From assembly GCA_023954815.1 (NCBI GenBank), contig JAGSHB010000014.1, forward strand, positions 1-60,424: a stretch of DNA of 60,424 nucleotides, read 5' to 3'. Below are positions 6,833-11,047 of this stretch, in pieces. The stretch's first letter is position 1. Each line of letters begins with the position of its first letter. The stretch comes from Myxococcales bacterium (GTDB lineage: Bacteria > Myxococcota_A > UBA9042). The notes under the pieces are model-generated. The model worked only from the letters and a program-made list of their open reading frames with translations. It was not told the DNA's origin and ran no database searches. The position numbers and the translations under genes were made by a program.

Positions 6833-8359
6833 TCAACGCGCGCCTTGTAGCGCCCACAAACCGTGACGCTGCGCCGCACTCGCCGCGGCGTTCTGTTCGA
6901 GCGGGTCGGACTTGTCCAAGGCGTTGAATGCGCGTTTGTAGTCGGAGAACGAACCGCCAGCTTCAAAGGCGTGCCAAGCGGCGAGCCCCGTAGCCTGGCC
7001 ACCCTGACTGAGTCGATATTCGATCCAAGCCCAGCGCGGAGAATCGAAACGCACGTCGACGCGGCGGCGCAGGGCCTTCTGCACCCGCTTGAGTCGGCGC
7101 ATGACCGTCGGGATATGTTCGAAAGGGGTCTCCGCGAGCGGCGTATGCAGCTTGGGCACAAATGGGCTGATGGTGATCGCCAGGGGCACGCGGGTCGACA
7201 AGTCGTTACAGAGATCGATCAACTCATCGAGATCGCGATCTTCCTCCTGGGGCAGCCCCAAAATGAGGTACATCTTCATCTGCTTCATTCGGAACGTGCG
7301 CGCCAGCTCCGCGACCTTGCGGAAATGCCGCTCCCGCAGCCCTTTCATCATCTTGCCGCGCATGCGCTGACTCGGCGCGTCCGATGCGACCGTCAGCGTT
7401 CGATAGCCGCCGAGGTGGAGCAACTCGACGAATTCTTCATCGAGCATGTCCGCCCGCAAACTGCTGATGCCGACCCCTTTTCCGCGTTCGACGGCCGCCC
7501 GAAGCGCCGGTTTGATAAAGGGCCAATCACTGACCGCCGCACCCACGAATCCGACACGCGCTGCGTCGCGATAGATCCCGGAATCCAGGGCGCTGACCAC
7601 GCGATCGAGCTCAGGGCTTCGCATCGGCGACGCCGGCGCGCGAACGACGCAAAACTTACAGTAACGCGGGCACCCGCGACTGGTCTCAAGCAGCGCCATG
7701 TTGCGAAACTCGGAGTCCGGACTCGTCCAAACGCCGTGGGCCGGAATGTGGGCGCCGCGTGCGACCAACACGTTGGGCACTGCGTCGCCATGCAAGCTCG
7801 GGACCCACACGCCATTGATCTCGGATAGGACCTTGAGGAACTCGGCTTTGGGCAGATCGGCTTCATAGGCGTCGAGCACGCTCTCTAGGGCATCTTCCGC
7901 CTCGCCGACGACGACGGCGTCAACGAAAGGACCGAGCGGCAGGACATTGCTCTGCGTCATCGGTCCGCCAGCGATGATCGGCGGCGCCGAATCGGAGCGG
8001 TCAGCGGCCAGCGGTGCGATGCCGCCGGCCTGCAGCATCCAGGCGAGATGCGGGATATCGAGCTCGTAGGCGATGGAAAACAGCACGGACGAAAACGCGC
8101 CGAGTGGCTGGCCATGCTCCATACTGCGCAACGGACCGCGCCACGAGGGCTCAAAGCAATCGTCCGGCAGCACGGCGCGTTCGCAGCTGACCGCCGCGCG
8201 GCTATTGAGAATGCGGTAGACCACCTGCAATCCGAGCGACGCGCCAGCGACCCGATAGTGATTGGGGTAGCACAGCACCAACTCTTGGGGCGCGCGGCGA
8301 TAGAGCGTGCCACGCTCGGTCGCGAGGACTGGAGCGCTGCGCCTGGGGTTGTAGCTCAT
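6833..8359 (-). CDS. Radical SAM protein with B12-binding-like N-terminal domain (TIGR03960-like)
   Basis: A protein of 508 aa. Residues 1-200 resemble the N-terminal region of cobalamin-type radical SAM proteins (VLCYPNHYRVAGASLG, PIIAGGPMTQSN, VVVGEAEDALE). Cys230, Cys234 and Cys237 form the CxxxCxxC [4Fe-4S] cluster motif (RGCPRYCKFC). The arrangement matches the widespread but functionally unassigned family in which such a domain is fused or adjacent to a DUF2344 partner; no DUF2344 protein is visible here. The ATG overlaps the TGA of the preceding gene (ATGA). Reaction and substrate unknown. Confidence 0.85.
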   Translation of the reverse strand: MSYNPRRSAPVLATERGTLYRRAPQELVLCYPNHYRVAGASLGLQVVYRILNSRAAVSCERAVLPDDCFEPSWRGPLRSMEHGQPLGAFSSVLFSIAYELDIPHLAWMLQAGGIAPLAADRSDSAPPIIAGGPMTQSNVLPLGPFVDAVVVGEAEDALESVLDAYEADLPKAEFLKVLSEINGVWVPSLHGDAVPNVLVARGAHIPAHGVWTSPDSEFRNMALLETSRGCPRYCKFCVVRAPASPMRSPELDRVVSALDSGIYRDAARVGFVGAAVSDWPFIKPALRAAVERGKGVGISSLRADMLDEEFVELLHLGGYRTLTVASDAPSQRMRGKMMKGLRERHFRKVAELARTFRMKQMKMYLILGLPQEEDRDLDELIDLCNDLSTRVPLAITISPFVPKLHTPLAETPFEHIPTVMRRLKRVQKALRRRVDVRFDSPRWAWIEYRLSQGGQATGLAAWHAFEAGGSFSDYKRAFNALDKSDPLEQNAAASAAQRHGLWALQGAR

Positions 8360-10650
8360 CTTTCGGTCTCGGCCTGCGATTGGATTCGTTCGATTACGCG
8401 GCGCACATCGTGCTGTTCTGGAAGTCCGAGCCGAGCCGTGATCATCAAAGCCTCGCCCAGCGCTTCGCCGCAGGCGTGGCCGTTACCACGCATGCCCTCA
8501 ACTTGGCCAAGTAAAAATAGCGCAGCACCGAGACTGCGGTCGTTTCCGGTGCGCAACAGGGTGACGGCCGTGGAGAGCGCTTGCGCAGCCGGCTCGAGTT
8601 GCCGTTGCATCGCCAGCGCTTGGCCGCGAACTGTCCACAATTCGCCAGCGGCGGCGGCTGGCCACTCGGAGGCATCCACGGAACTCAGCGCTTCGAGCGC
8701 TTGATCGGGCGCGTTGCGCTCACAGTGCAGTCGGGCCAAGTCGACGGTGCATCGATCAGCTTCCAGGCCGGAATGTAGCTTCGCCGCGCTAGCCAACTCG
8801 GCCATCGCGGTCTCCATTTCGCCGCCGAGCCGGGCTGCCGCCGCGGCCCCACGCAGCGCACTGAGTTGCATCGCGATGCTGCCGGCTCGGCGCGCCTGAT
8901 CGACGGCCTGCGCGAAGACATGGCGCGCTTGGCGTGCGCGCCGTAGACGAAGGAACGCGTCGCCCTGAGCGTACGCAGCCTCGGCCGCCAGACTCGGAAG
9001 ACGCACCGAAGATGCTTCGGCCATGGCGTGACCGAGGGCGAGCTGAGCCTCGTCGAGTCGCCCAAGCGCGACCAGCGCCTGCCCTCCGACCAGCAAGCTG
9101 CGTGCCCGGGTGACGCGATCGTCAGCCTCTCCGCCCGCTGAGGCCGCTTTCTCGGCTTGCTCAAGCGCTTGCTTCGGCGAGCCAGCGCCCAGCAGCGTCG
9201 CCGCGAGTCGTGCCCTTGCCCGGCCCCGCCAACGCATCAGCGGATGGCTGTCGGCAAGGTCAACGGCGTCCTCCGCGACTTGCTGAGCTGCAGCTGTGTC
9301 GCCGCTAGCACCCAGCGCCGCGGCGAGTAGATCCCGGGCAGCAATTCGCTGCGGCACACTTCCGGCGGCGTCAGCGTGCCCAAGAATCTGCCTTCCGAGG
9401 GCCACTCGCTTCTCAGCCGGCGCTGCCAATCGACCGAGGGCAGCTAGTTGGGTGAGGTGCGCGGCGACTTCAACATCGATTCTGCCGGATTCGCCGGCCG
9501 CGGTAGCTGCGCGCTCGGCAGTGGCCTGCGCACCTGCCAAGTCTCCGCTAGCGAGTTGGGCATCAGCCAGGAGCGCGGCAGCACGGGCGGCGCCGGCCTT
9601 GTCCTTCGCGGCCACGCGAATCGCCTCGGCATCGGAGGCTGCGCGTTCCGCGGCGACGGGGTTACTCGCCTTGAGGGAAAGCACGGCAAAGGCCTCCAGC
9701 CTGCTGGCACGAATGGCAGGCTGGTCCGCCAGGGCGGCGGCTGGCGCGTCATTTTGCAGGGCGAAGGCTTCTGCCCACTGCTCGTTGTCCGCCAACGCCA
9801 AAACGCGCTCGCTGTCCACCAACGCCGCGAGTCGATCGAGTCCTGCCGTGCGGGCGGCGTTTGCCGCCAAATCAAGGGCCTCGGAAGCGCTGCGCGGGTC
9901 GCCTTGGCGCCTTGCCACAACGGCATCGAGTCGCAGGGCGTCGACGTACAGGCTCGAGGCCGACAGCCGCTTGGCGACTTCAGCAGCAGCGGCCAACAGC
10001 AGTCGGGCCTCAGCCCAGTTGCCCGCGCGGATCGCTTGACGTGCCCGCACCAGCGCAACGGTGGCCTCAACGACCTCGGACTCATCGGCGACGCGCCGCT
10101 GCAATTGCGCGTCTGCGCCGAGAATGTCGCCTTGTAGCGCCACGGCGACGTCTGCCTGAGCACGATGCTCCGCGGCGGCGAGCATCGCTTCTGCCCGCTC
10201 TGGACGCGCCATGGACAGCTCTAGCAGGGCCAGTCCGGCCAGGGCCCGCGCGCCCAGCATGGGATTGCCGACGCTGTCTGCCAGGGCATGACAGCGCGAC
10301 CACCAGCCAGCCGCTGCCTCGGGATTGCCTCCCTGCCACGCCAGATCACCTAAAAGCAACGCAGCAGCAGCCTGCCCGCCCCGGTCATTGGCGCGCTGGA
10401 ATAAGTCGACGGCGCGCAAGCCGTCCTCATCAGCGGCCGTGAGGTGACCGCCATCCTGGTGCAAGTCGGCGCGTTCGAGGTGCAACCAAGCGACCTCAGC
10501 GGCCAGCGGTGTGGTCGCTGGGGTCTGAAGCGGCGCCTGCCCCAACGTGGCATCGAGCAACTGCGCCGCACGGCCAGCCTCTCCGCGCTGGCGCAGCAGG
10601 CGGGCCACATCCAGCACGCTGGATTGCTGATCACCAGGTGTGGGGGTCAC
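8356..10650 (-). CDS. Long helical-repeat (TPR-like) protein, function unknown
   Basis: A protein of 764 aa, extremely alanine-rich and without signal peptide or membrane segment. It consists of about twenty degenerate helix-turn-helix repeats of tetratricopeptide type (for example AEVAWLHLERADLHQDGG and GQAAAALLLGDLAWQGGNPE). It starts at a GTG at 10650 that overlaps the TGA of the arsC gene (GTGA), and its own TGA overlaps the ATG of the radical SAM gene. All three are therefore likely translated as one coupled unit. It may act as a scaffold for a protein complex, but no partner can be named from sequence. Confidence 0.8.
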   Translation of the reverse strand: MTPTPGDQQSSVLDVARLLRQRGEAGRAAQLLDATLGQAPLQTPATTPLAAEVAWLHLERADLHQDGGHLTAADEDGLRAVDLFQRANDRGGQAAAALLLGDLAWQGGNPEAAAGWWSRCHALADSVGNPMLGARALAGLALLELSMARPERAEAMLAAAEHRAQADVAVALQGDILGADAQLQRRVADESEVVEATVALVRARQAIRAGNWAEARLLLAAAAEVAKRLSASSLYVDALRLDAVVARRQGDPRSASEALDLAANAARTAGLDRLAALVDSERVLALADNEQWAEAFALQNDAPAAALADQPAIRASRLEAFAVLSLKASNPVAAERAASDAEAIRVAAKDKAGAARAAALLADAQLASGDLAGAQATAERAATAAGESGRIDVEVAAHLTQLAALGRLAAPAEKRVALGRQILGHADAAGSVPQRIAARDLLAAALGASGDTAAAQQVAEDAVDLADSHPLMRWRGRARARLAATLLGAGSPKQALEQAEKAASAGGEADDRVTRARSLLVGGQALVALGRLDEAQLALGHAMAEASSVRLPSLAAEAAYAQGDAFLRLRRARQARHVFAQAVDQARRAGSIAMQLSALRGAAAAARLGGEMETAMAELASAAKLHSGLEADRCTVDLARLHCERNAPDQALEALSSVDASEWPAAAAGELWTVRGQALAMQRQLEPAAQALSTAVTLLRTGNDRSLGAALFLLGQVEGMRGNGHACGEALGEALMITARLGLPEQHDVRRVIERIQSQAETER

Positions 10651-11000
10651 GACGCTGCATCTCCTCGCACGATCGTCAGCAAGTTTTCAGGCGGACGACC
10701 CAACGCAGCGCGGCCGTCGAACAAGCCGATCGGGCGCTGGAGCATTCGAGGGTTTTCGGCCATAGCATCGAGCAACACGTCGTCGCCATCAGAACTCGAA
10801 AACCCGTACTTCGTGGCATCCCGCTTACGCAACACATCACGCACGGTCATTCCCAGTTGCGCCAACACGGTCTCGATCTCGGCCCGTGTCAGCGGTTCTT
10901 TGGTGTATTCGCGGTAGGTAAATTCGATGTCGTTGTCTTTGAGCAAGGCGACCGCCTTGCGACACGCACTTCAAGTTCGGGTGCAAATGAGCGTCATCAT
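10647..11000 (-). CDS. arsC: ArsC-family reductase, predicted selenoprotein (UGA-encoded Sec10)
   Basis: A protein of 117 aa if the in-frame TGA at 10971-10973 is read as selenocysteine. Translation from the ATG at 11000 gives MMTLICTRT-U-SACRKAVALL, then the rest of an ArsC/Spx-type thioredoxin-fold protein. The U falls on the first position of the family's redox motif, giving U10-x-x-C13. The three arginine contexts typical of glutaredoxin-dependent arsenate reductases follow (VLRKRDATKY, MLQRPI, LGRPPE). The ATG has a perfect AGGAGG at 11008-11013, seven bases away. A UGA-adjacent hairpin fits a bacterial SECIS. A TTG at 10946, after the UGA, would give a 99-aa product lacking the active site and has no comparable ribosome binding site. 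Its stop overlaps the GTG of the next gene. Arsenate as substrate is inference; another thiol-disulfide role is possible. Confidence 0.88.
10943..10960 (-). promoter_or_regulatory. Bacterial SECIS-like hairpin
   Basis: In the mRNA, GCAAGGC pairs perfectly with GCCUUGC (7 bp) around a GGUC loop. The loop starts 18 nt after the UGA at 10971-10973. Known bacterial SECIS elements sit inside the coding region just downstream of the UGA, with a small apical loop about 16-37 nt away and a G among its first two bases; all three conditions hold here. It would recruit SelB with Sec-tRNA. The stem lies within codons for conserved residues, so the pairing is compatible with the protein sequence. Confidence 0.75.
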
Positions 11001-11047
11001 TTTGGAACCTCCTACTCGTCGGCACGCAAGGGTGTGCCGGGCCTCGG

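Follow-up and report, generated by a model that had tools for sequence, protein, structure and literature searches.

Selenocysteine (Sec) has been found in proteins of the ArsC type before. A Sec-containing ArsC with a UxxS motif was reported from Sargasso Sea data (PMC1088965), the GOS data contained an ArsC 1 with UxxS and an ArsC 2 with UxxC (PMC2398784), and 'ArsC-like' selenoproteins have been listed for Desulfotalea and Desulfuromonas (PMC1794560). A 2026 review gives a TIGR00014 type with UxxS and an NF041106 type with UxxC (PMC13188914); by our reading of the GOS report (PMC2398784), its 'Arsenate reductase 2' is of the NF041106 type.

In this study, we examined an ArsC-like gene with an in-frame UGA in a window of 60,424 nucleotides, the whole stretch of contig JAGSHB010000014.1 (assembly GCA_023954815.1, a Myxococcales bacterium) that was analysed. 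This UGA (10973-10971) is almost certainly recoded as selenocysteine and the gene a real selenoprotein gene, a judgement that we base on the pattern of TGA and TGC among its orthologs, the Sec machinery of the genome, a frozen SECIS hairpin and co-occurrence with selA. Like the Sec-containing ArsC with UxxS (Sargasso; GOS ArsC 1), the window protein belongs to the ArsC branch (COG1393/TIGR00014) and has its predicted Sec at the catalytic Cys. Its clade, however, carries UxxC with an invariant Cys13 and stays under the TIGR00014 cut-off, and identity with the Sargasso-type protein was rejected on the motif. NF041106 (ArsC_rel_Se_1), an ArsC-like family common in the phylum, has Sec in a UxxC at the same place as the window protein, but here too identity is ruled out: the window protein gave no match to the model at E 0.1 (cut-off 85 bits), the motif is WYYHRKGUTSC against LICxxTUxxC in the window clade, and genes of the two types lie at different loci in at least eight genomes. 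The single NF041106 match in the window's own genome is at another locus, with 21.8 bits. Across the phylum, NF041106 genes over the cut-off were found in 77 of 379 genomes (L103 to L122, for example), nearly all with an in-frame TGA, while that of G365 has no internal stop.

The first-pass annotation had referred to ArsC-like selenoproteins predicted from marine metagenomes. Such proteins do exist (PMC1088965, PMC2398784); they are, however, of the UxxS or NF041106 type and, as far as can be tested, not of the window clade. The window clade adds a new subfamily to a kind of selenoprotein that is already known. It has no current family model and was compared with GOS ArsC 2 by description only. 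Its signature is an invariant C-x3-U-x2-C centre together with the ArsC arginine triad. The wider proposal, that it represents a third, unmodelled lineage of ArsC-fold selenoproteins, with Cys6 and Cys13 around Sec10, a chemistry other than the classical glutaredoxin-arsenate one and a SECIS element kept nearly letter for letter across the phylum, falls in our estimate slightly short of an even chance.

The gene, its fold and its active site

With TGA read as U, the minus-strand frame 11000-10647 contains a single in-frame UGA, at codon 10, and its N-terminus translates as MMTLICTRT-U-SACRKAVALLK (Table 1). The start previously assigned to the gene, an ATG at 11000 with AGGAGG 7 nt upstream and a frame running through one UGA to 10647, was confirmed by this translation. 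Ordinary ORF calling retrieves from the same frame only a 99-aa ORF with a TTG start at 10946 (10647-10946), which is the fragment without active site that had been foreseen. Standard ORF calling, in other words, yields the selenoprotein without its active site, and none of the NCBIfam models picks up the window protein over its cut-off. The two strands of the window hold 1714 TGA triplets, and of these only the UGA at codon 10 is preceded in frame by a Shine-Dalgarno sequence and an ATG and followed by 100 or more open codons.

Table 1. Features of the selenoprotein locus (window coordinates)
Feature	Position	Strand	Basis and details
Sec-containing ArsC-like gene (predicted)	10647..11000	minus	117 residues; ATG 11000; stop TGA 10649-10647; translation, PF03960, AlphaFold model
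Shine-Dalgarno AGGAGG	11008..11013	minus	sequence; ends 7 nt before ATG 11000
In-frame UGA, predicted selenocysteine 10	10971..10973	minus	catalytic Cys column of ArsC; TGA in 33/34 orthologs, TGC in 1
Cys6, third Cys	10983..10985	minus	invariant; position of His in ArsC HX3C site
Cys13 of UxxC, likely resolving partner of Sec10	10962..10964	minus	invariant; codon TGT in 27/32
SECIS hairpin GCAAGGC-GGUC-GCCUUGC (predicted)	10943..10960	minus	7-bp stem; GGUC loop 10953-10950; synonymous-site freeze, compensatory pair, bSECIS rules
TPR-repeat protein gene, downstream	8356..10650	minus	start overlaps stop of selenoprotein gene

When Sec is read as Cys, the protein is a member of PF03960 (ArsC; 40.5 bits, cut-off 24). 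The closest named family is TIGR00014, the glutaredoxin-type arsenate reductases, with 81.4 bits against a cut-off of 106.05, whereas TIGR01617 (Spx/MgsR) gives 42.4 bits against 75.05. An AlphaFold model with 32 orthologs as input (pLDDT 86.4) has 3rdw as its best PDB match (TM 0.86), and ArsC crystal structures reach a TM of 0.83-0.87 of the query, compared with 0.65-0.76 for Spx. The alignment places U10 on the catalytic Cys, exactly as the first-pass annotation had proposed, and Cys6 on the His of the HX3C site. The label 'ArsC-family' accordingly stands for the fold and for Pfam membership, while arsenate reductase is a putative function, given a score below the TIGR00014 cut-off and a Cys where the active site would have His; filing the protein as a TIGR00014 arsenate reductase was rejected on that cut-off. 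The three arginine contexts noted earlier are indeed kept (DVLRKRD, QRPI and GRPPE), with R58, R89 and R102 invariant in 32 orthologs.

With the glutaredoxin-dependent arsenate reductases (R773 type, TIGR00014; PDB 1i9d, 3rdw), the window protein shares the fold, the nucleophile position and the three arginines, but it has a predicted Sec for Cys, Cys6 for His and Cys13 for Ser. With Spx/MgsR (TIGR01617), it has in common a CxxC-type redox centre followed by RKA, but differs in scoring under the cut-off and in keeping the GRPPE arginine; Spx is not known to have the third Arg and the GRPxE context of ArsC.

Mechanistically, SelB with Sec-tRNA-Sec would bind the hairpin just past the UGA during translation, and selenocysteine would enter the chain at position 10, where ArsC has its nucleophile. 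We infer that Sec is actually made in the cell. Sec10 would then take part in a selenol/thiol redox cycle in which Cys13 of the UxxC is the likely resolving residue, by way of a presumed U10-C13 bond, and Cys6 a possible third partner.

Substrate and gene neighbourhood

The retention of R58, R89 and R102 suggests that the substrate may be arsenate or a similar oxyanion, or a disulfide substrate in the same pocket. Taking the recoding as real, we consider it an even prospect that the protein is not an arsenate reductase but a general selenol/thiol oxidoreductase or Spx-like redox switch. The resemblance of UxxC to the CxxC of Spx, the third invariant Cys and the lack of any recurrent arsenic context among the neighbourhoods seen are consistent with such a role. 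Nevertheless, the Spx models stay well under cut-off (42 vs 75 bits), the third Arg and GRPxE, not known from Spx, are kept, and a thiol redox function provides no obvious reason for the invariance of the arginine triad.

Arsenate reduction by the window protein is plausible, and we regard a genuine arsenate reductase, with Sec as nucleophile and an internal resolving Cys, as a tentative reading that has less than an even prospect. It is favoured by the match to ArsC structures (TM 0.83-0.87), by the invariance of all three arginines, by TIGR00014 being the closest named family, and by a genome that encodes an Acr3 arsenite pump and in which no canonical Grx-type arsC over the cut-off was found. 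Yet the score of 81 bits is under the TIGR00014 cut-off of 106, Cys6 occupies the place of the ArsC-site His, and the gene lies outside an ars operon and away from acr3. Moreover, the acr3 efflux gene of the window's genome (L131, G000:C12) adjoins a different ArsC-like gene, of the LMW-phosphatase type, and arsenate detoxification may therefore be independent of the window gene; the product of that neighbour scores 101 bits with TIGR02691, below the cut-off of 174. Nor were ars genes recognised by eye in the ORFs around the orthologs.

The neighbourhoods of eight orthologs, judged by eye and by ORF start, contained no obvious conserved neighbour and no recurrent ars context. A similar downstream ORF was kept only in the same-genus genome L022, where an ORF with a start resembling that of the TPR gene follows the ortholog. 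Beyond the TPR gene in the window, 6833-8359 encodes a radical SAM protein related to TIGR03960, at 182 bits well under the cut-off of 462.

Conservation of the UGA codon and the selenocysteine machinery

A profile search over 379 genomes of the phylum delineated an ortholog group in 33 genomes, with scores that drop sharply from 127 bits to 100 bits where the ordinary Cys-containing ArsC proteins begin; a truncated match in G149 brings the number to 34. Read individually, the codon at the UGA column is TGA in 33 of these and TGC in one (G145). This agrees with the expectation that homologues should carry Sec or Cys here, as 33 orthologs have Sec, and one ortholog together with all but one of the distant ArsC homologues examined has Cys. 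In the family tree, all orthologs fall in one fully supported clade; the long-branch distant sequences L036, L038 and L096 also fall in it, probably placed there by branch length. The G145 gene nests within the Sec clade as sister to a Sec gene in a supported subgroup (99/86), and it is for this reason most simply read as a Sec-to-Cys replacement. Its hairpin region has lost GGUC, with CGUG as the loop and one mismatched stem pair. The clade is a clean natural experiment: next to 33 Sec genes there is one that has reverted to Cys and no longer has the SECIS loop, and the synonymous sites of the hairpin are frozen. It lends itself to testing what an ArsC active site gains from Sec, and whether oxyanions or general thiol redox are the business of such myxobacterial selenoproteins.

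In the alignment of 32 orthologs used for invariance and codon counts, C6, position 10 (Sec read as Cys), C13, R58, R89 and R102 are invariant. Selection after the UGA is purifying (mean pS 0.60 vs pN 0.31), and the nine codons before it are conserved, with L4, C6 and T9 invariant. A nonsense mutation or sequencing error, leaving a pseudogene or a gene that starts at the internal TTG 10946, would account for the 99-aa TTG fragment that is all the ORF caller finds, but it is refuted by 33 genomes from many families in which this codon is TGA, is equally at odds with the conserved upstream codons and the purifying selection past the UGA, and has a negligible probability.

Two of the distant sequences deserve mention in their own right. 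L096 (G132:C231, match from 301) reads LYLKSTUTSCRD, with TGA in the UGA column of the family and a GTACGA-GGUC-UCGUAC hairpin after it, and is possibly a further lineage of Sec-containing ArsC-like proteins. L038 (G013:C82, 1501-1824) reads LYUKSTC where its relative L036 reads LYWKSTC, so that a TGA replaces the Trp codon at the position of Cys6 in the window family; a nonsense mutation, an assembly error and Sec are all candidates.

The genome of the window, a fragmented assembly of 6.44 Mb in 314 contigs (97% complete), encodes a tRNA-Sec with a UCA anticodon (78.5 bits), SelA (480 bits), SelB with SelB-wing (winged-helix) domains (278 bits) and SelD (397 bits), whose active site also contains an in-frame UGA (SHGAG-U-ACK). 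The presence of selA, selB, selC and selD supports the earlier supposition that the cell decodes Sec. Among the TGA genomes, 32 of 33 have selA, compared with 209 of the 346 remaining genomes (P 5e-6 in a Fisher test, computed as if genomes were independent of one another, an assumption that does not hold); the TGA genome in which no selA was found, G039, is an 87% complete assembly. Against this background, an organism-wide reassignment of UGA to another amino acid such as Trp, to which nothing points beyond the in-frame UGA itself, is refuted by the TGA that terminates the same gene and by the absence of TGA inside selA and selB, is further opposed by the tRNA-Sec(UCA) and by homologues with Cys, not Trp, at the column, and can be dismissed as virtually impossible.

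The hairpin downstream of the UGA

The SECIS element of E. coli fdhF is a hairpin with a GGUC loop right after the UGA, as in the window gene, although its stem differs. The window hairpin had been described as starting 18 nt after the UGA. Its 7-bp stem and GGUC loop exist, but 18 nt is the distance to the loop: the stem pairs 10960-10954 with 10949-10943, and its first nucleotide lies 11 nt past the UGA. Rules for bacterial SECIS elements call for a loop of 3-9 nt with a G in the first two positions, a stem of 4-16 bp, a loop 16-37 nt after the UGA and an MFE of -7.5 or lower (PMC13188914). The window hairpin conforms to these, with a GGUC loop of 4 nt, a stem of 7 bp, a UGA-to-loop spacing of 17 nt and an MFE of -14.1. 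The arrangement of a UGA, 10 nt and this hairpin occurs once in the 6.44-Mb genome. A scan of the window against Rfam at gathering scores gave no match, and the single sequence, when folded, was not significantly lower in energy than shuffled versions (z -1.53), which is why we built the case for the hairpin on comparative evidence.

This evidence indicates that the SECIS hairpin is under selection. Across its seven codons mean pS is 0.15, against 0.60 elsewhere, the lowest of any 7-codon window of the gene. Leu19 is encoded by TTG in 30 of 32 orthologs, whereas TTG accounts for 10% of the Leu codons in the rest of these genes (P 9e-28, binomial), and the hairpin codons GCG, GTC and GCC are also favoured (P 1e-8 to 1e-12), all of these values coming from related sequences and not being true probabilities. 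At pair 18-27, a compensatory change from G-C to A-U is found in G281 and in G142, genomes from separate families, and 99.6% of cells are paired, compared with at most 57% in slid controls. The arginine after UxxC is variable, with Arg14 replaced by Ser in four genomes through CGC to AGC, a change that leaves the paired GC intact. In G031, the hairpin is shifted and has a 5-nt CGUGC loop. Finally, Cys13 is mostly encoded by TGT (Table 1) despite the GC-rich composition of these genes, and the U that immediately precedes the stem may belong to the signal for SelB.
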